Below are positions 1,614 to 23,936 of a stretch of 29,062 nt of DNA, one piece after another (the first letter of the stretch is position 1; the number at the start of each line of letters is the position of its first letter). Below the pieces are notes generated by a model. The model was given only the letters and a program-made list of their open reading frames with translations. It ran no database searches and had not been told where the DNA came from. Made by a program: the position numbers and the translations under genes. Source of the DNA: a virus; IMG/VR virus record IMGVR_UViG_3300030109_003851, positions 1 to 29,062 of that record; one strand, given 5' to 3'.

Positions 1614-2044
1614 TAGATTGTTGCACCCAATTGTACCACACGCCAGCCTGTGCCATCGCACACTGCCAAAGCACCCACGCCAGCACTGTCATCTCCTGCG
1701 TCAGAACAGAAAGCAACATCTCCTGCCGCCTTGTCTGATCTTGCATTCAATTGTGCTGTGGTTTGTGGTTTAAGATTTAGTATTTCTTCCAACTTGACCT
1801 TGCCTGTTGCAGGATCAATGGTCAAATCAGTTGATGTACTTGAATTGATTTCGTCTGGTATCACGGATGCAGTCAGTTTTGAACTGCCGTTCAATCCTGG
1901 CACGCCGTTGGCTGTGTCCTTGCCGTCTATAACATTTTTTAATTCGTCAAATGCCGCTTTAATATCCGCTCTTGCTGATGCGGGTGAATCACTGGCATCG
2001 TCCAAATTTGTTGTGACTACATTTGATGATGTTGCCCATCCCAT
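1613..2044 (-). CDS. Tail fibre/virion protein with shared W-module (143 aa)
   Basis: The N-terminus (MGWATSSNVVTTNLDDASDS, then ARADI) is the same module that opens the 492-aa and 165-aa proteins: a Trp at position 3, a Thr-Asn-x-Asp-x-Ala-x-Asp-Ser stretch, and a helix ending in Asp. It is followed by a Gly/Ser linker (45-60), a segment LTIDPATGKVKLEEILNL (about 73-90), and a C-terminal small beta domain with Cys107 and Cys119. The tetrapeptide DSAG lies at about residues 112-115. Marine phage relatives are annotated as tail fibre proteins. AGGAG precedes the ATG, and a TATAAATA motif lies 19 bases upstream. It is probably a small accessory spike subunit. Confidence 0.65.
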   Translation of the reverse strand: MGWATSSNVVTTNLDDASDSPASARADIKAAFDELKNVIDGKDTANGVPGLNGSSKLTASVIPDEINSSTSTDLTIDPATGKVKLEEILNLKPQTTAQLNARSDKAAGDVAFCSDAGDDSAGVGALAVCDGTGWRVVQLGATI

Positions 2045-2063
2045 TGTTGTTCTCCTATGTTTT

Positions 2064-2071
2064 TATTTATA
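2064..2071 (-). promoter_or_regulatory. TATAAATA late-promoter-like motif
   Basis: A perfect TATAAATA (minus strand) lies in the 106-bp gap before the 143-aa fibre gene. If it works like the T4 late promoter (motif at about -13 to -6), RNA would start near 2058. The 5' leader would then be about 14 bases, just enough to hold AGGAG before the ATG at 2044. Confidence 0.45.
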
Positions 2072-2150
2072 AAATTGGTTGTGGTATACAACTAATCGTA
2101 TAAAATGTTTTTGCCCGTATATTGACGTCTATGCAACAGCAAGACACCAT

Positions 2151-3629
2151 TTAACTAAAGTTCTTGCTCAGGCTTGCAAGGTAATTTGTGCCATCGTAAA
2201 ATATGGTCATGACATCTATTGAATTGGCGGCTGTGCTCAAAGTTTTTTCACCTCCCGCAAATTTCATTGTGCTACTGAGTGTTCTATTACCAGTTCCGTC
2301 CTGTGTGATGATCAGTGTTAATGAATCACCGTTTGCAACATTTGATAGTGCGTTCAATGTAAGGTTATTGTTCAATGTCATCTTTTGCACACTGCCGTTG
2401 TTGGGATCTGGTGTAAGTGTACCACTTGTTGTGCCAAGATCATTTATAATCTCTCCATAATTTTTTATTGCCATGTTGGTCAACTGCTGATCGTTCATGT
2501 TGAGAGTTGCACTCAATTGTGTTTGACTAATTGTGAATTCACCTGCAGAATCTGGTTGTGTGACTGTGATATTGTCACCGCCTGTGATATTTGAACTGCC
2601 ACCTGTGACATCATTTGTGATAGTCAGCACATCACCACTCATAGAAGTGGTAATACCTGTACCACCCCTTATCTCCAATGTGTCATTGGTTGCGTTTGCA
2701 GTTGTGCTACCTGAATCTCCTTGGAAGGTCACAAAAACATTTGGTGCACTTCCTTCGTTGCTCCAACTTAACACACCTGAACCATTTGTTTTTAAAACTT
2801 GTCCATTGCTACCATCCGCATTGGGCCATTTCTGACTGTTAAGGTAAATGTGTCCATCGTCACCTGAATTACCCGCTGAATCTGTATTGGTTACCGTGTT
2901 GATATAAATGCTTCTTAAACCTGCATCAAAATAGATACATTCAGCATTTAAATTTTCTTGATTAGGTTCACCTGCTGAATCGCTTAATAATTGTGCAGGA
3001 TCGCCTCCATTTAGATTGCCTCCTATGTTTGAACCTATGTAAAAATCTTCTCCACCAGTTCCTATAGACGCAACAGGAAAACTTGCATTATCAGTTGCCT
3101 TGGTTGCGGTTATGCGGTTTAGTCTTACCTCTATCCCGTTATTACCAATACCTGTACCAGACAACGTCACTTGCGATGTTGCAAATGAATATGTTTCTTT
3201 ATTATTACCACTGGATCTACCTGCGGCAATAATTTGTACTGGATTGTCTGTGTCTGCCCTTGAAAAAACTTTTATTTCTGATCTGTTGAATTCATCTGCT
3301 TCATTGGTTGACATTCTTACAACATCTACACCCTCAGAATCTTCACTTTGGAATTCAATTAAGCCTTGCACTTGTCCAGCACTGTCATCTGTAATTGTAT
3401 CACCAAATAATATTGGATTTGTTACCCTGTCGTCAGTTCCAACTTCTAATCTGCCGTTGGATGCGTTGTATTTCAACACACTGTCATTGGCAATGCCTGT
3501 GGTATCCACAAAGTCAACTATATCGTTGACTGCTTGACTCATTGTGTGCAGTTCTGCTCTAGATTCCGCTATGCTGTCTGCCGCGTTGTCAAATTTTGTT
3601 GATTCTGGTTTGTTAGTTGGCCATGCCAT
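2151..3629 (-). CDS. Tail fibre protein with W-module and shared C-terminal beta module (492 aa)
   Basis: This is the largest fibre in the left cluster. The N-terminus MAWPTNKPESTKFDNAADSI matches the attachment-type module of the 143- and 165-aa proteins. The middle (about 60-380) is Gly/Asn/Ser/Thr-rich with many short beta-strand repeats such as GGTGITTS and NITGGDNITVTQ. The last ~100 residues (QDGTGNRTLSSTMKFAGGEK, then LSTAANSID, ending SLSKNFS) repeat almost exactly at the end of the 377-aa fibre and more distantly in the 165-aa one. Four DSAG tetrapeptides lie at plus positions 2541, 2871, 2970 and 3375. Host recognition is inferred. The ATG is one base after the stop of the 252-aa gene (TAATATG), and GGAGG is too far upstream to be a good site, so coupling is likely. 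Confidence 0.7.
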   Translation of the reverse strand: MAWPTNKPESTKFDNAADSIAESRAELHTMSQAVNDIVDFVDTTGIANDSVLKYNASNGRLEVGTDDRVTNPILFGDTITDDSAGQVQGLIEFQSEDSEGVDVVRMSTNEADEFNRSEIKVFSRADTDNPVQIIAAGRSSGNNKETYSFATSQVTLSGTGIGNNGIEVRLNRITATKATDNASFPVASIGTGGEDFYIGSNIGGNLNGGDPAQLLSDSAGEPNQENLNAECIYFDAGLRSIYINTVTNTDSAGNSGDDGHIYLNSQKWPNADGSNGQVLKTNGSGVLSWSNEGSAPNVFVTFQGDSGSTTANATNDTLEIRGGTGITTSMSGDVLTITNDVTGGSSNITGGDNITVTQPDSAGEFTISQTQLSATLNMNDQQLTNMAIKNYGEIINDLGTTSGTLTPDPNNGSVQKMTLNNNLTLNALSNVANGDSLTLIITQDGTGNRTLSSTMKFAGGEKTLSTAANSIDVMTIFYDGTNYLASLSKNFS

Positions 3630-3630
3630 A

Positions 3631-4389
3631 TTAATCTACTTGAACCTCCGTTCTTCCTGCCTCATCTGATGAACATAGAGGCAAATATTGTACTTGAATA
3701 TCCACAGTGCAGTCTATCCTACGATTTTTTCCATAACTGTCTGCGTCAAAAATATTTAACACAATTGGATCAGATGTCTTGTCAATGTAGACAAGTGGTC
3801 TGACAGGATCTCCCGCAGAATCATCAAATCCTTTGATGTGTGGTTGCACAATGCAGTTGGTTATGGTGCCCGTTGTTATGCCCAAACTTAATTGCCTTGC
3901 ACCTGTGCTACCTGCAAGGTCACTGGTGTCTATGTTGCTCTCAGCAAACGATAATGATCTGTTTGCAAAACTTATTTGTAAATTTTCTAAAAATAAAAGA
4001 GGCGATCCTGCTGAATCTTCAGCACTGGCTGAATCACCTGTGCCCTGTGTCAATGTGAACTTGAAAAATCTTGCATTGATGGCACTCACAGTGGATCCTG
4101 GTGTGATTGTTGCAGTGGTTGGAGAATCAATCTCGCCTCCTGCTGAATCCACAGTGTCTCCACTCTGCACCGTTATGGTGACAGGTGCACCAGATTCAAA
4201 ATTTATTACAGGCAAGTGATCTGCCTTAAATCCTGCATCCACAATGTCGCTGGTGAAAAACAATTGACTGCCAGGTGTGCCTTGCCAAGTTGTCATGCTG
4301 GACCATGCAGTAAAATCCTGCCATTGTTCAACAGAACCACCTATCAATCTGTTTTGTGTTGTGTCAAAATATCCGTTATTACTACTCAT
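3631..4389 (-). CDS. Tail-associated structural protein (252 aa)
   Basis: No named family is recognised. The N-terminus (MSSNNGYFDTTQNRLIGG) leads into a Trp-rich stretch (WQDFTAWSSMTTWQG, about 23-37) that resembles the LTWAEMGTWAEPKQATWGG stretch of the 340-aa protein. The rest is predicted beta-rich, with a C-terminal strand-rich domain (about 150-250). Three DSAG motifs occur (plus 3811, 4006, 4138), in loops such as VDSAGGEID and FDDSAGDPV. TAGGAG precedes the ATG by 7 bases. Its position between the J-like protein and the fibres suggests a tip-to-fibre adaptor or fibre subunit. Confidence 0.6.
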   Translation of the reverse strand: MSSNNGYFDTTQNRLIGGSVEQWQDFTAWSSMTTWQGTPGSQLFFTSDIVDAGFKADHLPVINFESGAPVTITVQSGDTVDSAGGEIDSPTTATITPGSTVSAINARFFKFTLTQGTGDSASAEDSAGSPLLFLENLQISFANRSLSFAESNIDTSDLAGSTGARQLSLGITTGTITNCIVQPHIKGFDDSAGDPVRPLVYIDKTSDPIVLNIFDADSYGKNRRIDCTVDIQVQYLPLCSSDEAGRTEVQVD

Positions 4390-4398
4390 CTATCGCTC

Positions 4399-6783
4399 CT
4401 ATGGAAATCCTGTGCTGGATCCTGATAAACCGTGTGTGTGTTGCACATAATTTAAGAATCCTTCCAAGCCATCGTCTTTTAATTTTTTGCCTTGCAATAC
4501 ATATTCAAAACCTCCTGTTGGCATATTTGTACCAGACAAATCGCCCCCAATTCTAAATTCTTCTTCAGGACCAGCACCTGTTCTTATGCCTCTTGCAAAC
4601 ACAGTCAATCCCTTAACCAAAGGCAATCTCACAAACCCTCCAGTGCTTTGGAAAGTTCTTGTGAACACTGTGCCTTGATCTGTTCCCTGTGTTTCAAAAG
4701 ATGGATTCATACGACTAAAAAATAAATTTACTGCCTCAAAGAATAATCCATTTAATCCGCCATGTCTACCACCAAATTCAATACGCATTGCATTCACTGA
4801 AGATTCCGCTGGTAAGTTTAAAAGTATTTCTAAAACATTGCATCTAATGTTTGTACTGCCATTTCTTAACAATGCAATTTTGTCTGAACCTCCTTGTTGT
4901 ATTTTCCAACAATATCCGTTTTCTAATTGACCAGATCCAGTATCACCCGCTGACCTCTTAACAAGTGGACTGGTTGGTGGAAAAGTTATTTTGTCTTGTA
5001 CATAAATTTTGCCTGAAAAACGAAAGTTAGATGCTGGATTTGCCGCCAATGGCAAAAATGGTGCATGAAAAGCCGTCAATGAAGGTTTCTTGATTGGTTC
5101 ATAAGCAGGTGGTGGTGTTGGTGTTGGTGTTGGTCCCGCTGAATCTTCTGGTGTAGGCCCTGGTGGCAAAATACCTTTTGGTGGATCGCTCACAGGTCTC
5201 TGCAAAGGTCTACCTGCATAGTAATCTGGTAAGAACACTGTGGGTGGTATCTCCACTTGTGGCTGTGTCACATAAGGATAATGTGTGGCTGTGTGTTCAA
5301 CACCTTCTATCTGTATCAATCCTGTGTTGGTCAGTTTCATATCAACCACTCTAAATGTCTTGTTGGATAGATCCAAAATATCTTCTGTTATTCTTATGAT
5401 GTCACCTGGTTCAACATCAAATAATTCTTGTGTGCCTGTAAAACTTATGGTTCTTTGTGCCCTTGATTTGTCATAAATCATTCTTGCCAAATCTTGAGCC
5501 ATGTATTTGCAAGTCAGTGTTGGAAAAGTAAATTCTCCTGTTAATTCTTCATCGTCATCAATTGCTTGATCGCCCGCCGTGCTATGTACTGCCTGTTGGC
5601 TGGTAAATTCAAGATCAGGATCCACATAATTCACAAACACTTGGTTAAATTTAGTTTGTTTGGTTTCACCACCTAATGAAATTTCTCCTGTTATAAAGAA
5701 ATTGCTTACATCAAATGCTATATCAATCGTACTTGATGTGATGTCTGTGGCATTGCCGCCATCTTCAACTTTTAATTTGTATCTGCCATCTATGAAAGGC
5801 ATGATGCTTCTACATCCGCCCACCAATGTTTTTACATTATCAATTAATTTTGATTCTGGAGTTAATACAGCATTGCAAGTGAATGCAAAACTGCTGTGTG
5901 CAGAATTAGAATCATATGTCACGATTTGATTAAATTTTGTTGCCGCTATTCTAAAACTTTCTGTGTGTATCTGTTCTTTTTTCAATCCTAATCCATATCT
6001 TGGATTCATCATATAATCCAATAAACAATTTGCAGGATTAGTAGCAGGTCTATTGGTAGACAGTTGATGATATGATTTAGTTAAATCTGCGTAGTCGTTT
6101 GGCAAGTCCACAGTGTTTGCATCAACACTTGAAACATCAAAAACTTCTTTGCCAAACACATCAAATTGTATCTGAGGCACACCACCCTGGAATGGTTGTG
6201 AATCAATCTCTGCCTGTGTTGCATTTTTCCATTCAAATCTAAATGCCGCATAGGCAACACCAGGCATCTTTCTTATTTTGCCTGTGGCGTTCCATGATGG
6301 AGATTCATTTGCTAAATCACTTTCAACTTGATCTTCCTTACCATTAAATATCTGGAACTTTATTCTGTTGGCATATCTACCTGTCGTGGTTGTGATTTCA
6401 GCGCCATGTGTATAAGTTTGTGAAGTGCCTGGATGTGGTAATAATTCGTTGTCGTCTAATTTAATTCTATGTACACCTGCAATCTCACCTTCACATATGG
6501 CATAAACCACATGGAGAAACTGATTGCTTTTCCCATCTGTCTCAACATGGACAATCGTACCACCAACCCTTCTGAAACCATACACAATAGGTATGCCTAT
6601 GTTTGTGCCTGATTTGGTAATTTTTACGCCTTGTGCAATGCTGTCTGCAGAAACGTCAGGTGTTTCAATGTTGAAAGGTTTTATTACAAAACTAAAAGCA
6701 TCACCCACAAAACCAATGATACCTTTTATTACTTTTTTAAATGCTCTTTTTATTTTGTCTATAGGTTTTCTAAAAAATGACAT
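4399..6783 (-). CDS. Tail tip attachment / central fibre protein, lambda J-like (794 aa)
   Basis: The long protein closes the tail-tip module, the place of lambda J and of host-specificity proteins. Residues 1-35 form a basic amphipathic helix (KIKRAFKKVIKGIIGFVGDA). Residues 50-90 hold the motif IPIVYGFRRVGGTIVHVE typical of the J N-terminal domain, and the next ~400 residues have the usual beta-rich hub pattern. These include the late segment DVEPGDIIRIT that marks the phage tail protein domain common to J proteins. A Pro-rich linker (about 520-570, GPTPEDSAGPTPTPTPPP) separates a C-terminal domain of ~220 residues that probably carries specificity. It has one DSAG, inside the linker. Its ATG overlaps the GNAT stop (TAATG). 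Confidence 0.85.
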   Translation of the reverse strand: MSFFRKPIDKIKRAFKKVIKGIIGFVGDAFSFVIKPFNIETPDVSADSIAQGVKITKSGTNIGIPIVYGFRRVGGTIVHVETDGKSNQFLHVVYAICEGEIAGVHRIKLDDNELLPHPGTSQTYTHGAEITTTTGRYANRIKFQIFNGKEDQVESDLANESPSWNATGKIRKMPGVAYAAFRFEWKNATQAEIDSQPFQGGVPQIQFDVFGKEVFDVSSVDANTVDLPNDYADLTKSYHQLSTNRPATNPANCLLDYMMNPRYGLGLKKEQIHTESFRIAATKFNQIVTYDSNSAHSSFAFTCNAVLTPESKLIDNVKTLVGGCRSIMPFIDGRYKLKVEDGGNATDITSSTIDIAFDVSNFFITGEISLGGETKQTKFNQVFVNYVDPDLEFTSQQAVHSTAGDQAIDDDEELTGEFTFPTLTCKYMAQDLARMIYDKSRAQRTISFTGTQELFDVEPGDIIRITEDILDLSNKTFRVVDMKLTNTGLIQIEGVEHTATHYPYVTQPQVEIPPTVFLPDYYAGRPLQRPVSDPPKGILPPGPTPEDSAGPTPTPTPPPAYEPIKKPSLTAFHAPFLPLAANPASNFRFSGKIYVQDKITFPPTSPLVKRSAGDTGSGQLENGYCWKIQQGGSDKIALLRNGSTNIRCNVLEILLNLPAESSVNAMRIEFGGRHGGLNGLFFEAVNLFFSRMNPSFETQGTDQGTVFTRTFQSTGGFVRLPLVKGLTVFARGIRTGAGPEEEFRIGGDLSGTNMPTGGFEYVLQGKKLKDDGLEGFLNYVQHTHGLSGSSTGFP

Positions 6784-7256
6784 TATAACTCCTTAACATA
6801 CATATTGCCGCACCATTTCATGCCTTTCATTTCAAAATATTTACTTGCACGATTAACATAATCTTCATCAACATTATAATCTGTGTCAAACATGAACACA
6901 CCACCAAACATAAGTTCAATGTCGTGATCACGAAGATAATCTTCTATCTGATCTAAAAATTTATGACTGCTTCTTTTGTGTCTATATTCTGGATGTATGT
7001 AAAATACTTCTATGATGCCAACACCAATCTCGTTCCACGTCATTTCACTTAAACTGATCACGGCATATCCAACTGCATTACCATCTTTGCGATATATCAG
7101 TATGTTGCTGGTGTTTTCAATCAATTTTTTCCTTGTGACCTGCATTGCCGTTTCAACATCAAAGTCCAACTTGCCTTTCAGTTTGGCTTCTTCCGCATGG
7201 TTACGATATAAATTTTGTAATGATCTAAAATCTTCTATTGTGGCTTGTTTCATCAT
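6783..7256 (-). CDS. GNAT-family N-acetyltransferase (157 aa)
   Basis: The start is ATG 7256, sharing its A with the TAA of the 192-aa gene. An extension to 7271 is unlikely. The sequence follows the GNAT fold: MKQATIEDFRSL at the start, a central acceptor region, VGYAVISLSE (strand 4, about 67-76), then IGVGIIEVFYIHPEYRHKRS (about 82-101). Here the IHPEYRHKRSS stretch is the pyrophosphate-binding motif A, with the usual Q/R-x-x-G-x-G/A degenerated to YRHKRSS. A C-terminal FEMKGMKWCGNMYVKEL strand follows. Substrate unknown. It sits between tail-tip genes, where related phages often place an NlpC/P60 cell-wall peptidase. It may be a virion-modifying or host-modifying enzyme carried with the tail operon. 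Confidence 0.75.
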   Translation of the reverse strand: MMKQATIEDFRSLQNLYRNHAEEAKLKGKLDFDVETAMQVTRKKLIENTSNILIYRKDGNAVGYAVISLSEMTWNEIGVGIIEVFYIHPEYRHKRSSHKFLDQIEDYLRDHDIELMFGGVFMFDTDYNVDEDYVNRASKYFEMKGMKWCGNMYVKEL

Positions 7257-7834
7257 TATTTGAGTCCCCATTTTATTTCAGATAGTGTTTCATGTGCAAA
7301 TTCCATGCTGTCATCTGTTGGATGTTCTCTATGAAAATTTGTCTGGTTTGTTCGTCTACCATTCTTCCTGTTAAAATTTACAAATTGACTGCTGACCTGC
7401 AGTGTGACATCTGCTGTGGTTTGTTTGTTGTTTACTTGATAACCTGCCACTTTTCCTTTGAATAATAGGAAAGCATTTTCACCTGCTGAATCTCCAAACA
7501 ACAGATTGGTTGCAGGATCAATAAATCCACGATGTATTGAGACAGGTTTGTTTATAATACTTGATGCGGCAAAATTTTGTACATTTGCCAATGTTAAAGC
7601 ACTGATTGAAATGCTGACAGAACTAATCTGTACAGCACTGTTTAATTGTGTTTCACTCACAGCAATAAATTCACCTTGTGCTGAATAAGTGTTGCCCTCA
7701 TAGGTCAAATTGAATGGATTGTCTGTGTATCTCACAGTGGTGCCGTCTGCCTGTTGCAGTTCCAACAATAGCACACTGATAAAAGTGTTGCCTGATAGAT
7801 AGGTGTTTAGTGCATCACTAAATTCACGAGGCAT
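7256..7834 (-). CDS. Tail-tip protein, DUF2163/DUF1833-like (192 aa)
   Basis: The protein opens with REFSDALNTYLSG, then ISVLLLELQQADGTTVRYTD, typical of the small baseplate/tip proteins that precede the J protein in long-tailed phages. The middle contains paired beta strands (SAVQISSVSISISALTLANV). The C-terminus ends with RRTNQTNFHREHPTDDSMEF and IKWG, resembling the end of the DUF2163/DUF1833-type tip proteins where 'I-x-W-G' closes the chain. It has one DSAG in the loop LFGDSAGENAF (plus 7481). TAATG junctions link it on both sides. The order TMP, 213 aa, 192 aa, GNAT, J is the standard tail-tip order. Exact family assignment is by pattern only. Confidence 0.65.
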   Translation of the reverse strand: MPREFSDALNTYLSGNTFISVLLLELQQADGTTVRYTDNPFNLTYEGNTYSAQGEFIAVSETQLNSAVQISSVSISISALTLANVQNFAASSIINKPVSIHRGFIDPATNLLFGDSAGENAFLLFKGKVAGYQVNNKQTTADVTLQVSSQFVNFNRKNGRRTNQTNFHREHPTDDSMEFAHETLSEIKWGLK

Positions 7835-8475
7835 TAGATTACCTCCTCAACATCCATCCTATAATTCACAGTGCCATCAACATTGTATTGATAGGCTTGT
7901 ATATCGCTGGACAAAATTACTTGAAAAGGAACAGCATTGTAAGTGACTGCTGTTGAATTTGGCACATTAGATGTCAATGCAGGTTCAAAGTCAATATTAA
8001 AGCCTGCAGAGTCCAGTGTTGAATCTGCTGTTGCCATATAAACTTTGCTGTGGTTGGCAAATTTAAAAACATCACCCATTTGCAAAGCAGTGCCAGTCGT
8101 TGTGCCTGCATCATTGCTTAATGACACTCTTGATTCGCCTTGTGTGTGTTCTCTGTCTGCCACTGTGACTGTGCCAATACTTGCTGTGGCTGTCCTAAAA
8201 CTTATTTCTGGTATTTCAATTGTAAAATCGTTGACACTTGTTTTTGCTTTTGCAATAAATCCTTGTATCTGTTTGAAATCCGCGACAGTGATGTTCCTTA
8301 ATTCAAGTGTGCCTTTCCATAAGGTTGTTGCCGCAGTGCTTCTGATAATTCTACCTGATGCAGTTTTTGTGATTGCAACTTCATTCTGTTGTGAAAATCT
8401 TACTGCTCTGAATCCAATATTACTAACATTGGACAAAATGCTTGAACTGCCGTTGAATGCTCCTATACTAGCCAT
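7834..8475 (-). CDS. Tail-tip protein, distal tail-like/DUF2460-type position (213 aa)
   Basis: It lies directly after the tape measure, where siphoviruses encode the distal tail protein. The sequence is beta-rich with few charges. It has segments GRIIRSTAATTLWKGTLELR (about 42-61) and FKQIQGFIAKAKTSVNDFTI (about 67-86). A turn-rich region with DSAG (LDSAGFNID, plus 8002) follows, and a C-terminal segment NYRMDVEEVI that closes as in distal-tail or DUF2460 families. Function as the tail-tube-to-tip adaptor is inferred from order. Start TAATG-coupled to the tape measure stop. Confidence 0.6.
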   Translation of the reverse strand: MASIGAFNGSSSILSNVSNIGFRAVRFSQQNEVAITKTASGRIIRSTAATTLWKGTLELRNITVADFKQIQGFIAKAKTSVNDFTIEIPEISFRTATASIGTVTVADREHTQGESRVSLSNDAGTTTGTALQMGDVFKFANHSKVYMATADSTLDSAGFNIDFEPALTSNVPNSTAVTYNAVPFQVILSSDIQAYQYNVDGTVNYRMDVEEVI

Positions 8476-10868: not shown

Positions 10869-11161
10869 TTTAGTTTTCTCCTATTTTTAACACTAGTCAC
10901 CGTAGGTCGTAATATTCCCCTAGGTGCCTGTGTTGATCGCCCTCGTTCTAATGTGCCAATGTAAGGAACACGATTGATAACGGAAATGCTTTTGCCTTTC
11001 CTTTCAACACGCCATCCTTTCCTAGCACGACCTTGTCTGACAGGCGTAATTCTTTTTGCCTCTTCAAACAAGTTTTGTGCAAGTTGGGTGCTTGCCTTTT
11101 TGATAGATTGCTCTATGTTAGCAAACACCTTTCCTGCGTTTGTTGTTTTGACTCTAAACAT
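10865..11161 (-). CDS. Neck / tail completion protein, HK97 gp10-like (98 aa)
   Basis: The basic protein has ITPVRQGRARKGWRVERKGK (about 38-57), then NRVPYIGTLERGRSTQAPRG (about 63-82) and a short basic C-terminus. The pattern 'TP-x-x-T/Q-G-x-x-x-x-x-W' followed by 'N-x-x-P-Y-x-x-x-L-E-x-G' is that of the HK97 gp10-like neck/tail-completion family. In HK97 this family joins the head connector to the tail. Here it follows the tail tube gene instead of preceding it. The start is TAATG-coupled to the tail tube stop. Confidence 0.7.
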   Translation of the reverse strand: MFRVKTTNAGKVFANIEQSIKKASTQLAQNLFEEAKRITPVRQGRARKGWRVERKGKSISVINRVPYIGTLERGRSTQAPRGILRPTVTSVKNRRKLK

Positions 11162-11571
11162 TATGATGTTGTAGATTCAATTAATGGTCCGCTACCTTGG
11201 AAATCCACGGTTGCCGTCACTAGATCATCAAATGATGCTGTTCTCGCCACTGATGTGACAATTACATCACCTTCGTATTGTGGTTTAGACGCTGTTGTTG
11301 TCGTTCTAAATATAACACGAAGAGTTGCATCTGCTGATGGATCAAAAATGCCCAGACCTGTTGCTGTGTCGTCGTAGACTACTTCCATAGATCCACTAAA
11401 TTGGTGTAAGCCAGAAATATATGTTCTTGCCGCATCACCCATCTTAGTTGATTCTATAGCCGCTTTCTCGTGAGTCACTGTCCAACTTCTGACGTTCGCA
11501 ACTGCCGTTTCCGTTCCGCCTGAATCAGCCGCTGTCACGACTTGTCCAGAACTACCTTCTAAAACCGCCAT
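11161..11571 (-). CDS. Major tail (tube) protein (136 aa)
   Basis: Residues about 25-75 carry the tube-protein pattern VRSWTVTHEKAAIESTKMGD, then ARTYISGLHQFSGSMEVVYD and DTATGLGIFD. The 'W-x-x-x-x-x-x-x-x-I-E-S-T' beta strand, the 'R-T-Y-I-x-G-L' loop and 'G-S-M-E-V-x-Y-D-D' are features of siphovirus tail tube subunits. A C-terminal strand VARTASFDDLVTATVDFQGS and a Ser/Thr end follow. The length is on the short side, as in other small marine siphoviruses. GAGGAG lies 8 bases before the ATG, the strongest ribosome site around, fitting a highly made subunit. Confidence 0.82.
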   Translation of the reverse strand: MAVLEGSSGQVVTAADSGGTETAVANVRSWTVTHEKAAIESTKMGDAARTYISGLHQFSGSMEVVYDDTATGLGIFDPSADATLRVIFRTTTTASKPQYEGDVIVTSVARTASFDDLVTATVDFQGSGPLIESTTS

Positions 11572-12340: not shown

Positions 12341-12793
12341 TTACCTTATTAGGCGATTGAAATATTGTGCTTGTTTTTCTGTGTTTGTGACTGTGCCAGA
12401 ACTGTCAGCATCATATTCAATACCATCTTTTAAAATTTTTTCAAACTCTCTGTCGTACTCTTTACGATAATATTCCATCTTTCTTTCAAAGATATCTACC
12501 TGTTCATCAAATTTTGCAAGTTTTGGATATATGTGATAACCTAATGTCTGATACACAGCCGCTCTTGTGAGTTGACTTGCTGTGAACAGATCTTCGTCTG
12601 GATCTTCTTCACCTGAATTTAAAACTGATATATCGTATCTACCAAATGTAAAAGTGGGCCACCATTCTATACGCAAATCACGGAACACATCGTTCTGTCC
12701 TTTTGTGATTTCGTCTGTGAATGAAGGTACGCCGTAGTTTAGTATATCTGGTTCGTAATCCTGGATGTCTGCAATCGTTAATAGTGTTGCCAT
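12341..12793 (-). CDS. Head-tail connector / adaptor protein (150 aa)
   Basis: The first gene after the capsid terminator. It starts MATLLTIADIQDYEPDILNY and is helical and charged. It has the segments FTDEITKGQNDVFRDLRIEW (about 25-44), SQLTRAAVYQTLGYHIYPKL (about 73-92) and a C-terminal Tyr/Glu/Arg-rich helix (FERKMEYYRKEYDREFEKIL). The pattern of a mostly alpha-helical protein of about 150 residues directly after the capsid gene fits head-tail adaptor 1 (gp6/gp15-like). These adaptors dock onto the portal. It is transcribed from its own region with an ATAAATA motif and a hairpin leader, and has GGAG about 11 bases before the ATG. Confidence 0.65.
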   Translation of the reverse strand: MATLLTIADIQDYEPDILNYGVPSFTDEITKGQNDVFRDLRIEWWPTFTFGRYDISVLNSGEEDPDEDLFTASQLTRAAVYQTLGYHIYPKLAKFDEQVDIFERKMEYYRKEYDREFEKILKDGIEYDADSSGTVTNTEKQAQYFNRLIR

Positions 12794-12923: not shown

Positions 12924-13772
12924 TTATACTTGGTTGTCCCCAATTATACCAACGCCATATGCGTCAACAAGTTCTGAAACTCCAAATGCGTGTGTTCCAA
13001 TCAACTCAGTTGATCTTGCAGATGCATTTCTTTCAGTTTCAAGTCTGAATGGTCTTTTGTTTACATATGCAAGTGCATCTCTTGAGAAAGCCGCACCAAT
13101 AACGCCACCTGCTGATGGATCGTTAGAGATGTTTGAACTTTCAAAGATTTGCATTCCTGCAAGTGTTCCAATGAAACCGTCTCTTAATGCTTGGTTACCA
13201 ATGTCAGATAAAGAACCCATGTTAGTGTTCCCTGTACCTGCTAATTGTTGTTTAAGCGCCATTGCTTGGAATGGTGCCAACACACAATAGTATGGTCCTG
13301 GTGCATTGTTGTTTCTTAATGTTGCCGCCGCTTGGAAGATCACAGATGCAGTAATTTCTGCCGCGCCTGAACCCACAGTGCCTGAAAAGCCTGCGAATAA
13401 ATTCGCTAAGTCTTGATCAACTTTTGCCGCGATGCCGTCTCCAATTTGTCTACCTACAGCCGCTTGTACGTCTAAAGAAGCAGATTCTTTTGTGAAATCT
13501 GTTAATTCAACGCCAACACCAATTTCAGCACACGTCACATCTTTACCTGTTGGGTTAAATGTTGTCATTGTGCTTATGTCAGTGCCTTCTACAAGTGCGC
13601 CTGCTGATACAACTGGAATTACAGGAATAGAGGCTGTTAAACCTGGTGTTCCTGATAGGTCGTAGTTTGCCACAAGTGGTCTGATTACTGTTTGTTCACT
13701 TAAAGTAAAGACAGCCGCTTGCGATATATTTTCAAACAGTTCTACTGTTTCTGAAGTAGTTGTTATAGCCAT
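12924..13772 (-). CDS. Major capsid protein (HK97 fold, 282 aa)
   Basis: The protein is 282 residues and lacks an obvious long delta or scaffolding domain; a separate scaffold gene precedes it. Landmarks: MAITTTSETVELF opening, then TVIRPLVANYDLSGTPGLTA (about 29-48) and VPVVSAGALVEGTDISTMTT. It also has VELTDFTKESASLDVQAAVG (about 88-107), an Ala/Gly-rich central helix region, the A-domain-type stretch NAPGPYYCVLAPFQAMALKQ (about 155-174) and a C-terminal SELVDAYGVGIIG. This composition and length fit HK97-fold capsids of small marine siphoviruses. AAGGAG precedes the ATG by 8 bases. A strong terminator follows. Confidence 0.9.
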   Translation of the reverse strand: MAITTTSETVELFENISQAAVFTLSEQTVIRPLVANYDLSGTPGLTASIPVIPVVSAGALVEGTDISTMTTFNPTGKDVTCAEIGVGVELTDFTKESASLDVQAAVGRQIGDGIAAKVDQDLANLFAGFSGTVGSGAAEITASVIFQAAATLRNNNAPGPYYCVLAPFQAMALKQQLAGTGNTNMGSLSDIGNQALRDGFIGTLAGMQIFESSNISNDPSAGGVIGAAFSRDALAYVNKRPFRLETERNASARSTELIGTHAFGVSELVDAYGVGIIGDNQV

Positions 13773-14510: not shown

Positions 14511-14547
14511 ATAATTGTCCTCTTTGTTTATGAGTTGAGTGCCCTCC

Positions 14548-14561: not shown

Positions 14562-14570
14562 TCTCATGTT

Positions 14571-14578
14571 TATTTATT
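14571..14578 (-). promoter_or_regulatory. AATAAATA late-promoter-like motif before scaffold
   Basis: The motif overlaps the stop codon of the basic 53-aa gene and lies 61 bases before the scaffold ATG at 14510. The gap between these genes contains no other gene. Predicted RNA start near 14565. Confidence 0.4.
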
Positions 14579-15032: not shown

Positions 15033-15034
15033 TG

Positions 15035-15271: not shown

Positions 15272-15446
15272 GTTTTATTCTCCTATTGATTAAACTTTGT
15301 GGTATCCTCTGTCCTGATCTTGCCATCTTGCCAATCCTTTTTATTAGATTAGCCAATTGCACTCTTTTACTGCCTTTCACACCACTAAGGTATTTTTTAG
15401 GTACTGTTGATTTTTTATCCTTAGGAACTCTGCGTCTCTTCACCAT
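15255..15446 (-). CDS. Small basic head-region protein (63 aa)
   Basis: The start is ATG 15446 with GGAG 7 bases before. The TTG at 15458 would add four residues without support. It has 21 Lys/Arg and only one Asp in 63 residues (predicted very high pI). The motif VPKKYLSGVKGSKR (about 15-28) is shared with small phage proteins of unknown function that sit after the portal gene. The start lies 26 bases inside the portal gene. It could be a DNA-binding head-interior protein or a small connector subunit. Confidence 0.68.
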   Translation of the reverse strand: MVKRRRVPKDKKSTVPKKYLSGVKGSKRVQLANLIKRIGKMARSGQRIPQSLINRRIKLGKAS

Positions 15447-18197: not shown

Positions 18198-18523
18198 TAT
18201 TTGTTCTCCTCTGGTTTTGTAAGTGCTGATAAAAATTCTCCCAATGGTAAAGGTTTCTTGTCATCCAAGTATTGTGGCTGATCTTTTTGTCCAAGATAGT
18301 TTTTACCCATGAACTGCAACATCTTTGGATCACCTTTCTCTGCCTTCTCCATCTGTAATTTTTTTATGTGTGCTTGACCTTGAAGTCTGCCCTCGTCTAT
18401 TACTTTCTTAAATTGTTTTCTAATAACTTTTATCGTGGTATTCATAACAGCCGCAATCTCCTTGTCATTGCATTGGTCAAATGCAAGTTGTCTTATCTGT
18501 TCTCTGTTAAGTTTTCTAGCCAT
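18197..18523 (-). CDS. terS: Terminase small subunit
   Basis: A 108-residue helical protein. Residues about 6-40 form a helix-turn-helix (REQIRQLAFDQCNDKEIAAV, then a recognition helix KVIRKQFKKVI). The segment KAEKGDPKMLQFMGKNYLGQ (about 60-79) is the hallmark of small terminases that read 'A-x-x-G-x-x-x-M-x-x-x-L/M-G-x-x-x-L-G-Q'. A charged end binds TerL. It recognises the packaging site, though none is identified here. Coupled to terL through TAATG and to the 109-aa gene upstream in the same way. Confidence 0.9.
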   Translation of the reverse strand: MARKLNREQIRQLAFDQCNDKEIAAVMNTTIKVIRKQFKKVIDEGRLQGQAHIKKLQMEKAEKGDPKMLQFMGKNYLGQKDQPQYLDDKKPLPLGEFLSALTKPEENK

Positions 18524-18852
18524 TATACCTGTCTCTCTACCACCTTAATTCTAAAGTTCCTGCTGTCCTTTAGACTGTTTGTTGTTATAATTCTAAATTC
18601 TACATTGTAGATGTTGCCTGCTGTGCCACCTGATATGAAAGCCTTGGCAACGAAATCTGTTTTTGAAGATGAATCCACAGCCAATGGTGCGGCATCTCCG
18701 TCTATGGTTTGGACTGTGACAGTGATTGAATTAATCGTGTCACCACTTGCCATTGCATTGGTAAAGTCCATCGCGTAATCTAATACAGCAAATGGATCCT
18801 TTTCAATGAATTGTCCTACTCTGTCTGATTTGTATCCTGTTAATGTTGCCAT
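18523..18852 (-). CDS. Fibre-tail adaptor-like protein (109 aa)
   Basis: It begins MATLTGYKSDRVGQFIEKDP, then FAVLDYAMDFTNAMASGDTI and NSITVTVQT. The pattern 'K-D-P-x-A-V-L-D-Y-x-x-D-(W/F)-x-x-x-x-x-x-G-D-x-I' belongs to phage fibre-tail adaptor-type proteins, with an Ig-like beta domain (residues about 45-105). It is directly upstream of terS and downstream of the fibre genes, as in related genomes. It would link tail tip and fibres. Function is inferred from family pattern. Confidence 0.68.
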   Translation of the reverse strand: MATLTGYKSDRVGQFIEKDPFAVLDYAMDFTNAMASGDTINSITVTVQTIDGDAAPLAVDSSSKTDFVAKAFISGGTAGNIYNVEFRIITTNSLKDSRNFRIKVVERQV

Positions 18853-18855
18853 GTG

Positions 18856-19878
18856 TTATCCTGTTCTCCTGTCTATTGGTCCAACCTCATCTACTAATAC
18901 CGTGTGCTGAACAGTAAGTTTTCTTGACTCAGAAGGTACAACTAAAAGTCTTGTTTCTTGGTCAACAATATTTATGCGTGACTCTGGACGAACTGTCACT
19001 CTTCTAAAAGGATCAAACGCAACTTTACTGCCTACAACTAATGTTGAACCACTTGTTATGATACTTGCTTCACCATCTGCAAGGAATCCACCTGGAACAT
19101 TTGGTATAATCACTTCAGCCGTAAATGCACCTGAGGCAAATCTTACTCTAAATGCGTTTGCGTCAACAGTGAAAATGCCTGACTTCAATGCAATACCGCT
19201 GGCATTGAAAGTTGGTTCAGCAACAAGGTTTGAACTCACAGTGATGTCTGATTGTCCTAATCTTATTCTCTGACCTAATGCCTGTACACTGGCAACACCA
19301 TCTAGATTGAAGTTAGCAACTCTGTTAATTTTTTTACCTACAGCATTGATAGAAAAACTTGAACTTTTTCCAACTGAAGCACTTCTAACAAAAAATCCGC
19401 CGTTGGTTGTTTGAGTGAAAGTGGATGTTAATTCGCTTCCTCCCAGTATGCCTGCTATGGCTGATGCTGTTAGTGTAAATGTGCTTGGAGGTGATGTTAA
19501 TAAACCAGCAAGTATGCCGTCTCCATTTATGCTGGTATTGAATGCACCTGTGATATCAACAGTGCCTCCAAAAGTTTTACTACCTGTTGCTGATACTGTG
19601 AATGAAGATGTCTCAACTATTCTACCACCTTTTAATCTGTCAGCAGTGACAGAAAAGTTTTGTCCTCCCCATGTGGCTTGCTTAGGCTCTGCCCATGTGC
19701 CCATCTCTGCCCATGTGAGTCCACTTAGGTTTGAAAATATATTGGCACTTGATCCTCTTATTCTAATGCCAGTCGCGGATATGGTTGCAGATGAAGATAC
19801 GCTTGCCGCACCTACAAAAGTTGCCTGTACATAACCAGAGGCTACATACCCAGTATTTGTATATAGGATATCTGCCAC
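18856..19878 (-). CDS. Repetitive beta-rich tail/fibre protein (340 aa, GTG start)
   Basis: GTG 19878 has AGGAG 8 bases before it; no closer ATG is available. Residues about 50-75 carry LTWAEMGTWAEPKQATWGGQ, related to the Trp-rich stretch of the 252-aa protein. About nine imperfect repeats of roughly 22-25 residues follow, each with an alternating strand such as SSFTVSATGSKTF, STFTLTASAI, SSFSINAVGKKI or GIFTVDANAF. The C-terminus has three 'E-(S/T)-R-x-x-x-V' repeats (PESRINIV, QETRLLVV, SESRKLTV). This is a fibre-like shaft structure. No enzyme motif is seen and no named family is recognised. Confidence 0.62.
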   Translation of the reverse strand: MADILYTNTGYVASGYVQATFVGAASVSSSATISATGIRIRGSSANIFSNLSGLTWAEMGTWAEPKQATWGGQNFSVTADRLKGGRIVETSSFTVSATGSKTFGGTVDITGAFNTSINGDGILAGLLTSPPSTFTLTASAIAGILGGSELTSTFTQTTNGGFFVRSASVGKSSSFSINAVGKKINRVANFNLDGVASVQALGQRIRLGQSDITVSSNLVAEPTFNASGIALKSGIFTVDANAFRVRFASGAFTAEVIIPNVPGGFLADGEASIITSGSTLVVGSKVAFDPFRRVTVRPESRINIVDQETRLLVVPSESRKLTVQHTVLVDEVGPIDRRTG

Positions 19879-19896
19879 AGTAGGGACTCCTAACTA

Positions 19897-20331
19897 TTAA
19901 GCCAATGTTATGCTTAAATTTGTGTCCGCTATTTGGAAAGAGTCTCCGTCTTCAATTGTCTTGCTGGCTGTTAATGCTCCGTAAAATAAAACATTTCCCG
20001 CGCCTGCAGAATCACTTGTTGAGTTTGTGTCCATCACTGCTACATGGGTGATTGTTCCAAAATTACCACCTGATGCTGTAAATGTGACTGCTCCGTTGTT
20101 TGTTGCCGTACCTGCCGCATTCGCCGCATTGAACGATATGGTTTGTCTTGCATATCCGTTGCCAGTGACTTCATTTGTAAGATCACCTGTTTCTAGTTCT
20201 TCCGCTGTGTTGCCTGCAGAATCATCTGTCGTGAACAAAGCCAAGAAAACTGTTCCTGGTGTTGTGAAAGATGCTGTTCCTAGAGCGTGGTCTAACAATT
20301 TCTTTTCTAAATAATCGCTTGATGCACTCAT
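19897..20331 (-). CDS. Conserved tail fibre-associated protein (144 aa)
   Basis: Starts MSASSDYLEKKLLDHALGTA, continues TTPGTVFLALFTTDD, and has NGYARQTISFNAANAAG (about 57-73), NFGTITHVAVMD (about 90-101), VLFYGALTASKTIEDGDSFQ and ADTNLSITL at the end. This is a widespread phage family commonly annotated as tail fibre protein. It is a small beta sandwich that packs against the fibre or tip. Two DSAG tetrapeptides lie in loops (plus 20002, 20212), one of them just before the conserved NVLFYG strand. AAGGAG precedes the ATG, and AATAAATA lies 43 bases upstream. Confidence 0.8.
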   Translation of the reverse strand: MSASSDYLEKKLLDHALGTASFTTPGTVFLALFTTDDSAGNTAEELETGDLTNEVTGNGYARQTISFNAANAAGTATNNGAVTFTASGGNFGTITHVAVMDTNSTSDSAGAGNVLFYGALTASKTIEDGDSFQIADTNLSITLA

Positions 20332-20374
20332 TGTTATTTCTCCTTAAGGTTTCGTTATTGTTATATAACTCTTT

Positions 20375-20382
20375 TATTTATT
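20375..20382 (-). promoter_or_regulatory. AATAAATA late-promoter-like motif
   Basis: It overlaps the end of the 172-aa gene, 43 bases before the ATG at 20331. The predicted RNA start near 20369 begins the perfect 10-base palindrome GTTATATAAC (20360-20369). Confidence 0.4.
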
Positions 20383-20899
20383 ATGTTTTGTTGATTCCAA
20401 TCAGCAAACGACCGCTGATGTTGAATGCACTAGATCCCAATGCCCTCTTCAATCCAAAGTACAATGCTGGTTTAGAACCATCATTATCTATTGTGACAGA
20501 CTCAATTGTTTGATTACTGCCGCTGTTGAAACTTGCATTTTGAAATGTGTTTAGAGCCTGGTTTGGACCTGATGAGGTTGATGTTGAATCCAATTGTGCG
20601 ACAACAAAACCTGCTTGGTCTGAACTGTTTGAACTGCTGTATGTGGGATGAGAGATCACTGTTAATTTTAATGTGCCTGATGTGGTCAGTGCGATCCCGT
20701 CACCGTTGGGATGATTTGTAACCCTCTGCACAATACTTTTTGGATCAGATCCAATTACATTCCAAGTGCCTGAACCATTGTTGCTCCATCTGTATTGATT
20801 GGAACTACCTCCTGCTGGATTTGGTCTTCCATTTGTGTCTTCAATTAAAACATCAAATTGGTTACCTACTATTGATAATAAAGGTGCTGTGAATGGCAT
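20381..20899 (-). CDS. Fibre-module protein (172 aa)
   Basis: No family recognised. The start overlaps the 165-aa stop (TAATG). The sequence opens MPFTAPLLSIVGNQFDVLIE and is rich in Ser, Asn, Gly and Thr. It has alternating strands (LTTSGTLKLTVISHP, about 72-86; FVVAQLDSTSTSSG, about 98-111) and a final YFGLKRALGSSAFNISGRLL stretch. DQAG in place of DSAG occurs near residue 94. It sits in the fibre cluster and is probably a structural fibre partner or chaperone-like subunit. Confidence 0.5.
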   Translation of the reverse strand: MPFTAPLLSIVGNQFDVLIEDTNGRPNPAGGSSNQYRWSNNGSGTWNVIGSDPKSIVQRVTNHPNGDGIALTTSGTLKLTVISHPTYSSSNSSDQAGFVVAQLDSTSTSSGPNQALNTFQNASFNSGSNQTIESVTIDNDGSKPALYFGLKRALGSSAFNISGRLLIGINKT

Positions 20900-21396
20900 T
20901 ATGACATATCCAACATGGCATTACCGTATAGGTTTGTGCCGTCAGATACGAAACATAAAACATCAACATCATTTGCACCTGTGGATAGTGTTGGTGCGTT
21001 GCCGTTTGGAAATTTATATTTTGAATCGTAAGCCAAAGTCCTGTTGCCCGTGCCGTCCTGTTTAACAATCAAGACGTATGTTGCTCCCGCTTCAATGTTG
21101 GTTGGGTTTGCTAATGTTGAACTTGCCGCCAATGTTAATTGTGCCACTTGATTGGCACCTAGGTCCCATGCAATACCACCTGAACTGTCATCTGTTGCAG
21201 TTAAGGTAGTCATGTTGAAATATTGTTGTTTGGAGTATTCGCCTTTGGTTGCGTAAGGTCCTGTGGCATCATAGAAGTCTATGATTGTGTTCACATTTGT
21301 AATATTTTGTAATATATCTGATCTTGCGTCTGATATTGAATCATTTGCGTTATCGCAATTGGTTGTTCCTGCTTTTGATCCTGATGGCCATGACAT
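20899..21396 (-). CDS. Fibre protein with both shared modules (165 aa)
   Basis: The N-terminus MSWPSGSKAGTTNCDNANDS continues ISDARSDI and matches the 143- and 492-aa proteins. The C-terminus YVLIVKQDGTGNRTLAYDSK and LSTGANDVDVLCFVSDGTNL matches the end modules of the 492- and 377-aa proteins. It is therefore a minimal fibre: attachment-type module plus end module with only a short middle. AGAGGAG precedes the ATG by 8 bases and AATAAATA lies 17 bases upstream. A DSSG variant replaces DSAG near residue 73. Confidence 0.65.
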   Translation of the reverse strand: MSWPSGSKAGTTNCDNANDSISDARSDILQNITNVNTIIDFYDATGPYATKGEYSKQQYFNMTTLTATDDSSGGIAWDLGANQVAQLTLAASSTLANPTNIEAGATYVLIVKQDGTGNRTLAYDSKYKFPNGNAPTLSTGANDVDVLCFVSDGTNLYGNAMLDMS

Positions 21397-21413
21397 AATT
21401 TTTCTCCTCTAGT

Positions 21414-21421
21414 TATTTATT
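21414..21421 (-). promoter_or_regulatory. AATAAATA late-promoter-like motif
   Basis: The minus-strand motif begins at the stop of the LamG gene and lies 17 bases before the ATG at 21396. Predicted RNA would start near 21408, leaving a leader of about 12 bases that still contains AGAGGAG. Confidence 0.4.
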
Positions 21422-22791
21422 TACGAATTGTCATCTGTTTGAGTGGTTGACTCCATATGGAACAATGCAATCGTGTCATCATCATTTGTGAATGCAGAAC
21501 TTGGCACTGTGATGTTGCTTGAACTGTGTGTGTACCTGTTCACTGAAGATACCCTTATCTCATCTATGGTATTGGTTCCTGAATTTGTTCCTTCTCCTGA
21601 TTGTCTGTTTCCAAAGAACAAGTTGGTGGTAGCACTTATGCTGTGTGAAGCGGATATCTTGTGTGTGCCGTCCAACCATAAGTGGAAGGATCCTGATCCG
21701 TTGTATTGCATCGCAATATGATGGAAACTTGTGTCTGCACTGCCAAGATTTGTTTCACTGCCGTCGTGTGTAAAATAAAGATTTCCGTTTGAATATGTGT
21801 GCAGTGTCAGTTGGTTTGAACTGGTTGGAAAACCGTCACTGCCAAGTGATGATGTTGAAAATAGTTTTGTGGTTTTGTTTGATGTGCCACCATCACTGAT
21901 TTTAAATCTAAATTCTAATGTTATTGTTTGATCATCATCAAATTCAAAACCGCCTGGTAAAATATTCACGTAAGCGTGTGATCCGCCAGCATTCAATTGT
22001 AGTGCATTGTTGAATACGCCACTTGATGTTTGTGTGAATCCACCATTGCTCCATTCTGATTGAGCTCTTGGTCCATCATCTGTTGTTGTGGTGTCACCGT
22101 TTGAACCATCAAAGTGTAGCAGTAGTTCCGTATCTTCATCACCTACAAAAGCAGATGTTGGCACGGTGAATGATGATCCTGAATATCTTGCCGTAGATGA
22201 ATGTCTAAACTCATCTATATAACCTACAGTGCCAAATCCTCCACCTCCAAGATATACACCTATCCTGTAATCGCTGGCAATAAAATTCGTGCTGTTGGAA
22301 ACACTTGCTAATGATGTGCCATCTCTATAAAATCTAAGTGTGCCTGATGATCTATTAATCGCCAAATGATACCATTGTCCTGTGCTCATGCCATGACTGG
22401 CCTTAAGGAGTTCTGTGTTACCACTTCTTATTACAAATTGACTTGACGAGTTAAAGTATCCATTCAGTCTGCCTGATGATCCACTTCCTGTGTCAAAAAA
22501 GTATCTGCCATGCACAGTGGATAAATCTGTTGGATAGTAGAAAAATTCTATAGTGAAATCACCTGAACCTATGTTAAGATCTGCGTGAGGAACATCCACC
22601 GCATCATTTGTGCCATCCAACTCAACACTTGTTGCACCAAATTTTGCTTGGTCTGTGGAGATATGAGCATTATCAGTCAGTGTGACTGGCTTTGCACCTG
22701 ATGTTCTTGTACTTTGCGCCACCGCACCTGCTATTGCTACGTGACTTGTTTCCAATGATAGTGTGTTTAATCTTGCTATACCTAATGGCAT
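21421..22791 (-). CDS. Tail fibre protein with two LamG/concanavalin-like domains (456 aa)
   Basis: Two tandem laminin-G-like sandwich domains can be read. The first (about 45-225) has TSVELDGTNDAVDVPHADLN and SGDFTIEFFYYPTDL, then TGQWYHLAINRSSGTLRFYR and YIDEFRHSSTARYSG. The second (about 255-445) has LQLNAGGSHAYVNI, QTITLEFRFKISD, FHHIAMQYNGSGSFHLWLDG and TIDEIRVSSVNRYTHSS. The shared blocks WYHLA/FHHIA and (Y/T)IDE(F/I)R mark an internal duplication. Such domains bind sugars or polysaccharide, so this is a candidate receptor-binding protein. AGGAG precedes the ATG. Confidence 0.82.
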   Translation of the reverse strand: MPLGIARLNTLSLETSHVAIAGAVAQSTRTSGAKPVTLTDNAHISTDQAKFGATSVELDGTNDAVDVPHADLNIGSGDFTIEFFYYPTDLSTVHGRYFFDTGSGSSGRLNGYFNSSSQFVIRSGNTELLKASHGMSTGQWYHLAINRSSGTLRFYRDGTSLASVSNSTNFIASDYRIGVYLGGGGFGTVGYIDEFRHSSTARYSGSSFTVPTSAFVGDEDTELLLHFDGSNGDTTTTDDGPRAQSEWSNGGFTQTSSGVFNNALQLNAGGSHAYVNILPGGFEFDDDQTITLEFRFKISDGGTSNKTTKLFSTSSLGSDGFPTSSNQLTLHTYSNGNLYFTHDGSETNLGSADTSFHHIAMQYNGSGSFHLWLDGTHKISASHSISATTNLFFGNRQSGEGTNSGTNTIDEIRVSSVNRYTHSSSNITVPSSAFTNDDDTIALFHMESTTQTDDNS

Positions 22792-22802
22792 TATGTTATC
22801 TC

Positions 22803-23936
22803 CTATGCACTAAAGTTTTTTGAAAGGGACGCAAAATATGTGCCACTTGCAAATGTAATCGTCATTATGTCAATGCTGTTTGCCGCAGTTGATAAAGTTT
22901 TTTCTCCACCAGCGAACAACATCCTGTTGGCACTGTCTACATTGTCAGTAAATGTATGATTGCCTGATCCATCTTGTTCAAAAATTATTGAAATGGTTGC
23001 CCCTTCTGTTTCTGTTGCAAAGCCATTAAAATTAACATTACCAGTCAAAATCATTCTCTGTATAGGTCCATCTGTTGGCTCTGGTGTAAAGTTTGAATTA
23101 TAACTTGCTTCATTAATTTTTTCGTTGTATGTAATATTTTTTAAATTTGTTTTTCCAGAACCATTTGGTTGAATGTCTATGTTGCCGTTTGATACAGAAA
23201 CAATGTCATTGCCATTAACATCCAAGTTGCCACCCAGTTGTGGTGAACTGTCATTTGCAACACTGGCTATACCTGCTGATACTGTGTTTGTGATTACGAA
23301 ATCACCAGCACTGTCTGGATTGGAAATTGTTATACCTGTGCCTGCAGATAGTTTTACAAAACTTAAATCACCGTCTGCGTTTGTGACTATGAAATCATTA
23401 GCATTTGGTGATGTGCTTGGAAAAGTAAGTGTGTAAGATTGTCCTGCTGAATGGGGTGGTGATGCTAATTTAATACCATGTGAATTTGCTGAACAGTTTA
23501 ATTGTATTGTGCCATCTTCTGATGCACCATCTCCCTCAATTTCTACAACACCTGATCCATGAGGTGATAATTTTAGATTGGCATTTCCACTAGCAGTAAT
23601 AATTTTACTGCCATTGACATCAAGATTGCCACCCAGTTGTGGTGATGTGTCTGAAACTATATCTGCTAAAAATGTTGTGCCTGTGATAGTTAATATGGCT
23701 GTGCCTGTACTGTCAGCCGCGATTGCTGTGGTAATGTTTGTACCACCTTTTATTTCTAAAACTCCTGTTCCTTGTGCAACTCCTACAGTTGCATTGGTTG
23801 AATCTGCATCAACCTGTATGGCTTGAATTTTGCTTGTTAAGAGATCAACAAAGTTTCCATCCAACTCTGCGTGTGTAAGGGTTGAACCTTTGTTGGTTGC
23901 TCCTGTTTGATCTGTTGTTCTTAATGTTATTGTCAT
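22803..23936 (-). CDS. Tail fibre protein with GGNLDVNG repeats and shared end module (377 aa)
   Basis: The N-terminus MTITLRTTDQTGATNKGSTL, then ELDGNFVDL, is a common phage fibre opening. Two copies of SPQLGGNLDVNG (about 90-102 and 230-242) mark an internal repeat, each followed by a Gly/Ser shaft segment ending SPHGSG or QPNGSG. The last ~100 residues (FEQDGSGNHTFTD, MLFAGGEKTLSTAANSIDIM, SLSKNFSA) match the end of the 492-aa protein. One DSAG lies at plus 23304, at the same point (PDSAGDF) as PDSAGEF in the 492-aa paralogue. AAGGAG precedes the ATG. Confidence 0.75.
   Translation of the reverse strand: MTITLRTTDQTGATNKGSTLTHAELDGNFVDLLTSKIQAIQVDADSTNATVGVAQGTGVLEIKGGTNITTAIAADSTGTAILTITGTTFLADIVSDTSPQLGGNLDVNGSKIITASGNANLKLSPHGSGVVEIEGDGASEDGTIQLNCSANSHGIKLASPPHSAGQSYTLTFPSTSPNANDFIVTNADGDLSFVKLSAGTGITISNPDSAGDFVITNTVSAGIASVANDSSPQLGGNLDVNGNDIVSVSNGNIDIQPNGSGKTNLKNITYNEKINEASYNSNFTPEPTDGPIQRMILTGNVNFNGFATETEGATISIIFEQDGSGNHTFTDNVDSANRMLFAGGEKTLSTAANSIDIMTITFASGTYFASLSKNFSA

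Follow-up and report, generated by a model that had tools for sequence, protein, structure and literature searches.

Why a single tetrapeptide, Asp-Ser-Ala-Gly (DSAG), recurs across the structural proteins of one phage is the question raised by the virus record IMGVR_UViG_3300030109_003851, whose 29,062 bases (the window) carry siphovirus-type genes. Six-frame translation of the window showed 14 copies of DSAG, all on the minus strand and within eight structural genes, and their coordinates, genes and codons matched those reported by the first-pass annotation. The open reading frames (ORFs) concerned encode proteins of 143, 492 (four copies), 252 (three copies), 794, 192, 213, 144 (two copies) and 377 amino acids (aa). 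The codon words were GATTCWGCRGG (10 copies), GACAGTGCTGG (3 copies) and GACTCTGCAGG (1 copy). A further, 15th in-frame reading at +4802 was located inside an unlikely 83-codon frame antisense to the J gene.

The counts were obtained from 39 gene models comprising 9,209 aa, in which the runner-up tetrapeptide occurred 4 times and the expected number of DSAG from per-protein composition was 0.29. Dipeptide-preserving shuffles (n = 300) gave a mean of 1.08 DSAG and a maximum of 5, never 14, while the best count reached by any tetrapeptide across the same shuffles was 7. The excess of DSAG in the window was thus confirmed, as the first-pass annotation had proposed. Comparison of the flanks of the 14 sites showed a median of 2 identical residues out of 24 and only one clearly homologous pair, the fibre modules at residue 360 of the 492-aa protein and residue 208 of the 377-aa protein. 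Since the flanks are otherwise unrelated, the 14 copies do not represent one duplicated module, and an origin by simple fibre repeat or tandem module was excluded.

The motif was then counted in a lineage set of 602 non-redundant ORFs from 68 sequences, including the complete genome DSL-LC06; the ORFs were picked mechanically, so that family counts are approximate, and the choice of queries for contig retrieval also influenced the family lists. A total of 130 DSAG were observed against 3.9 expected, at about 33 distinct aligned sites in 11 virion families. The fibre-377 family contained 41 copies, the adaptor 19, the 252-aa family 14 (with 6 distinct sites across its members), the 165-aa family 12, the 492-aa fibre 9, the tail tube 6 (6 of 7 ORFs), J 5, the capsid 4 (4 of 8 ORFs), the distal tail protein 4, the fibre tip 4 and the minor tail protein 2. 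No DSAG was found in about 41,500 aa of the lineage comprising TerS, TerL, portal, scaffold, tape measure, chaperone, terminator, the GNAT acetyltransferase, both glycosyltransferase candidates and others. The motif had been described as a tag of tail proteins, and tail proteins do carry it, but across the lineage it marks outer virion proteins, the capsid of relatives included.

In many related contigs, and in DSL-LC06 with its 8 copies in 6 ORFs, DSAG ranked first or nearly first among tetrapeptides. DSL-LC06, from Dishui Lake, is the nearest complete genome (TerL 58% identical to that of the window) and its predicted host belongs to the Pseudomonadota (PMC10611076). The pelagiphages HTVC026P, 202P, 112P and 111P stand further away, with TerL identities of 46-49%, and tetrapeptide counts showed no DSAG in these four or in most other distant relatives. 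There was no near match of the window among the phage collection. Viral contigs were also scanned with a pair pattern for dispersed DSAG in other lineages. Of the 29 matches, those outside the lineage proved to be frames arising by chance, tandem repeats or copies that lay mainly in a single protein; the scan used part of codon space and is no proof of lineage specificity. A literature search on the motif returned only the archaeal group of that name. DSAG is a trait of the lineage, which consists of small phages of aquatic habitats, and not a quirk of one genome. A rare case in a protein with no obvious virion role was a small Cys-rich protein, a relative of window 1165-1440, which ends in ...ECTDSAGE in two related contigs (L008:16491 and L010:14137), while the window copy ends in ...WDSAI. 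In HTVC112P and HTVC111P (L067 and L068), the top tetrapeptide was NTTG, with 9 and 8 copies, respectively, which may represent a repeat in fibres or a different tag.

Residue specificity was assessed in the outer virion families (165 ORFs, 53,727 aa; figures are observed/expected). The enriched forms were DSAG (122/2.9), DSTG (18/4.0), DSGG (16/3.3), DSSG (13/3.6) and DSYG (5/1.1). Enrichment was lost on changes at the other positions (DTAG 3/3.4, NSAG 0/2.7, ESAG 0/1.5, DAAG 1/2.6 and DSAA 2/3.0), which shows that D, S and G hardly vary and that small residues are favoured at position 3, giving the form D-S-[A>>T,G,S]-G. DSLG (2/2.2) and DSVG (2/2.2) were at expectation, neither DSA without the following G nor DGAG was enriched, and counts on a smaller sequence set agreed with the pattern. 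At the DNA level, 28 lineage sequences contained 157 stretches able to encode DSAG, of which 151 fall in the coding frame, and 45 different 12-mers encode the motif with codon frequencies close to background. Because the codons are ordinary and the copies lie in frame, selection acts on the peptide, as had been suggested from the differing codons of the window.

Alignments of the virion families placed DSAG in internal loops and not at protein C-termini, as seen for the tail tube, the adaptor and the fibre tip. Most outgroup tail tubes are shorter by several residues at the position of the lineage's DSAG, and within this loop the register of the motif shifts (DNDSAGTGTNT, DAAGDSAGGSN, TAEDSAGTTT) while the four residues stay intact. 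The second loop of the adaptor varies in length, reading TNSTSDSAGAG, DVAGFGDSAGSG or SLQDDSAGQG in the lineage and DAST-SGN in outgroups. The 143-aa fibre-tip protein has DSAG in one loop in the window and in a different loop of the same domain in L007 and L064. In an AlphaFold2 (AF2) model of the 144-aa adaptor, with a mean predicted local distance difference test score (pLDDT) of 85.8, both sites fall in coil, in the lowest-confidence segments. The adaptor model and homology suggest that the sites are exposed on the surface of the assembled particle. The location in loops was thus borne out, and many sites are not ancestral strings of their families. The proposal that DSAG is an insertion held in part: many of the roughly 33 aligned sites, not all, are gapped in family members without the motif, and several are short insertions relative to homologues, but some are substitutions in an existing loop. 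Taken across the alignments, DSAG has been gained repeatedly in loops of the lineage's proteins.

All sites in the window lie on the minus strand. DSAG was found in the 143-aa fibre-tip-like protein (gene 1613-2044) at 1679-1690; in the 492-aa fibre protein (gene 2151-3629) at 2541-2552, which is residue 360 with flanks homologous to the 377-aa site, and by translation at 2871-2882, 2970-2981 and 3375-3386; and in the 252-aa protein (gene 3631-4389) at 3811-3822 and, again by translation, at 4006-4017 and 4138-4149. PHROGs matches in the window identified a J-like hub (central tail fiber J), a distal tail protein, a minor tail protein and fibres. The J-like hub protein (gene 4399-6783) has the motif in a Pro-rich linker at 5134-5145, the 192-aa minor tail protein (gene 7256-7834) at 7481-7492, where 14 of 14 outgroup sequences are gapped, the 213-aa distal tail protein (gene 7834-8475) at 8002-8013, and the 377-aa fibre protein (gene 22803-23936) at 23304-23315.

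The 144-aa protein (gene 19897-20331) carries DSAG in its second loop at 20002-20013, in coil of low pLDDT, and in its first loop at 20212-20223, adjoining the lowest-pLDDT segment (residues 37-40). It had been counted among the tail proteins, but its AF2 model matches the phage GP4 fibre/fibre-tail-adaptor entry 8jou_a (Z 15.4, 1.8 Å over 125 residues), and it resembles that chain rather than a tail protein proper; a 109-aa window protein matches the GP4 gp77 adaptor family (PF23148). The absence of DSAG from the capsid and the tail tube, reported at first pass, is true of the window genome, whereas relatives have DSAG in both, in the aligned loop. The tail tube protein of the window (gene 11161-11571, profile match to the solved major tail protein 8gtb) has the variant DSGG at 11515-11526, in the same loop that holds DSAG in relatives, and the major capsid protein (12924-13772, minus strand, profile match to the solved major capsid protein 4bml) has the loop NDPSAGG as against GDSAGA in relatives. 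DSSG is present in a 150-aa adaptor-like protein at 12341-12793, whose family contains six DS[GST]G strings, and this suggests that the variant form is kept there.

The simplest account of a tag shared by capsid, tube, hub, neck and fibres, where its flanks are unrelated, is that one modifying enzyme uses it as a substrate motif. Among the docking, modification and processing roles that had been offered for the motif, modification is the best supported, though unproven, and processing and docking have no specific support. DSAG would then be a lineage-specific sequon placed in loops of the capsid, tail tube, distal tail protein, hub, neck/fibre adaptor and fibres, where a cytoplasmic enzyme would read D-S-[A/T/G/S]-G and modify the serine, most likely by O-glycosylation. 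The glycan would be made and attached by KpsC-like and GT42/CstII-like phage enzymes, with variable acetyl-, methyl- and amidotransferase accessories, and the outcome would be a glycan coat on the virion. We infer three things here: an enzyme recognises the tag, the phage itself encodes this enzyme, and the serine receives a sugar. That DSAG is a tag for serine O-glycosylation by phage-encoded glycosyltransferases has, in our judgement, an even chance of being correct. The wider proposal, that these phages run their own sequon-directed protein glycosylation, with a loop tag, cytoplasmic serine O-glycosylation and a variable glycan over the whole virion, is held more tentatively.

Two glycosyltransferase candidates were identified in the window. 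The first, a 191-aa GT42/CstII-like protein (24385-24960, minus strand), adjoins the fibre operon and was recognised by fold and profile. Over 159 of 182 residues, its AF2 model (pLDDT 91.9) could be superposed on CstII (Z 9.2, root-mean-square deviation 3.8, about 14% identity), and CstII matches ranged from Z 8.0 to 9.2 over 150-163 residues. The profile match to CstII was weak (E 0.1), and Foldseek by itself returned nothing significant from the PDB for the model. The family has a conserved N-terminal GNGxS motif, also present in CstII, and an invariant Asn. The GT42 assignment is tentative because SteA and thiamine pyrophosphokinase score similarly. The second candidate, a 318-aa KpsC-like protein (25612-26568, plus strand), was identified through the KpsC annotation of its relative in DSL-LC06; it is almost exclusive to the lineage, it had no Pfam family match, and a profile search of its family in the PDB gave nothing credible. 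Among 50,697 named phage records, each candidate was matched only in DSL-LC06, and relatives of both were present in five contigs found via the adaptor and reaching this region (L034, L035, L038, L042 and L044) as well as in DSL-LC06. Contigs fetched with glycosyltransferase queries are not independent support for co-occurrence. No relative of either candidate was found in the four DSAG-free pelagiphages. In a gene-content comparison, no gene separated DSAG-free from DSAG-rich members of the lineage. A genome scan with the KpsC-like family gave one contig, a lineage phage binned in a Porticoccaceae metagenome-assembled genome, with a single DSAG in the part examined.

Genes for GT9, methyltransferase, FkbM and amidotransferase proteins vary among DSL-LC06 and relatives, with a clear GT9 (PF01075) in L010 and L064, and such a variable accessory set is as expected for a diversifying glycan. 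Possible accessory modifiers in the window are a GNAT acetyltransferase (PF00583) between the minor tail protein and J (6783-7271, minus strand) and an AsnB-like, possibly sugar-amidating, amidotransferase cut by the window end (27792-29060, plus strand). The AsnB-like gene follows a radical SAM/SPASM protein (26908-27900), both after the KpsC-like gene; the SAM/SPASM protein has a relative in L010 (70% identity), and the amidotransferase has one in L038, between portal and scaffold. The left end of the window (1-237) is apparently the start of a GT9-like gene similar to L010:487-1275, which lies between portal and scaffold (PF01075). At the place equivalent to the window GNAT, a lysine acyltransferase annotated as toxin-activating (HlyC/RTX-type) is encoded in HTVC026P, 112P and 111P, so that an acyltransferase recurs at the minor-tail/J site.

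Several observations weigh against O-glycosylation of DSAG by these enzymes. O-glycosyltransferases do not usually distinguish Ser from Thr so strictly. Some probably exposed proteins are sparing in DSAG, with 1 in 10,934 aa for the LamG-domain protein and 1 in 10,721 aa for the 340-aa family, and the gp77-like adaptor, probably exposed as well, had none in the lineage ORFs. The GT42 fold match is middling and common to other Rossmann-like proteins. Glycosyltransferase relatives occur in the lineage members L079/L080 and L106/L107 with no DSAG in the sequence examined, and distant GT42-like genes occur in some unrelated DSAG-free viruses. The glycosyltransferases and DSAG share one lineage, and their co-occurrence may reflect common descent.

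The loops, the strict four residues and the repeated gain fit a protein-binding linear motif equally well, and DSAG may instead be an unmodified short motif on exposed loops to which a common partner from host, virion or environment, such as a decoration protein or a host-surface lectin, docks. We regard this as unlikely, as the sites span capsid, tube, hub, neck and fibres with unrelated flanks and no gene for such a partner was identified, though the conserved gp77-like protein may be one. Rather improbable is a non-sugar mark on Ser or Asp (acylation by GNAT, phosphorylation or phosphopantetheinylation), or the action of a host enzyme: a GNAT is encoded between the genes of the minor tail protein and J, and the strict choice of Ser suits Ser-specific chemistry, but GNAT enzymes usually acylate amines and not Ser, three DSAG-free pelagiphages have a different acyltransferase at that place, and the genes identified in the window include neither a kinase nor a phosphopantetheinyl transferase.

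The motif does sit in turns, and one pair of sites lies in a homologous fibre module, as would be the case if DSAG were a turn favoured in beta-rich phage proteins and passed on by descent and by recombination of fibre modules. This account is very improbable, given that the turn-like DAAG, DGAG, DTAG and NSAG are not enriched, that homologous proteins of related phages lack DSAG and that the flanks are otherwise unrelated. A DNA element as the selected unit (a modification site, an uptake signal or a mobile 12-mer) would fit the 10 of 14 window copies that read GATTCWGCRGG; the frame and codon data of the lineage rule it out, and its probability is close to nil.

Should DSAG prove to be a sequon, the lineage would possess a small, transferable tag that marks the entire outside of its virion. 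The logic would be comparable to that of N-glycosylation sequons, yet encoded by a 30-kb phage; virion modification would be predictable from sequence alone, and a short tag would be available together with a candidate pair of enzymes open to co-expression testing.

Among known systems, the Bacteroidota general O-glycosylation motif is D(S/T)(A/I/L/V/M/T) (PMC8550257), which DSA fits. Unlike that motif, the one described here does not accept Thr at position 2, requires the following Gly, and shows enrichment of DSG and DSS variants and none of DSL or DSV; its setting also differs, the predicted host of DSL-LC06 being of the Pseudomonadota (PMC10611076). The 191-aa candidate may be related to the GT42 sialyltransferase CstII of Campylobacter, with which most of its model aligns; the identity is low, and other Rossmann-like proteins score as high. 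Phage-encoded glycosylation of the virion is known in the mycobacteriophages Che8, Corndog and Myrna, with the capsid and tail tube as targets (PMC12363180, PMC12619734). The lineage may be similar, in that its phages encode candidate glycosyltransferases and, judged from sequence, capsid and tail tube are among the tagged proteins. The mycobacteriophage glycans were reported at the C-termini of capsid and tail tube (PMC12619734), whereas the mark proposed here would be carried by a four-residue motif in internal loops of about 12 virion proteins.

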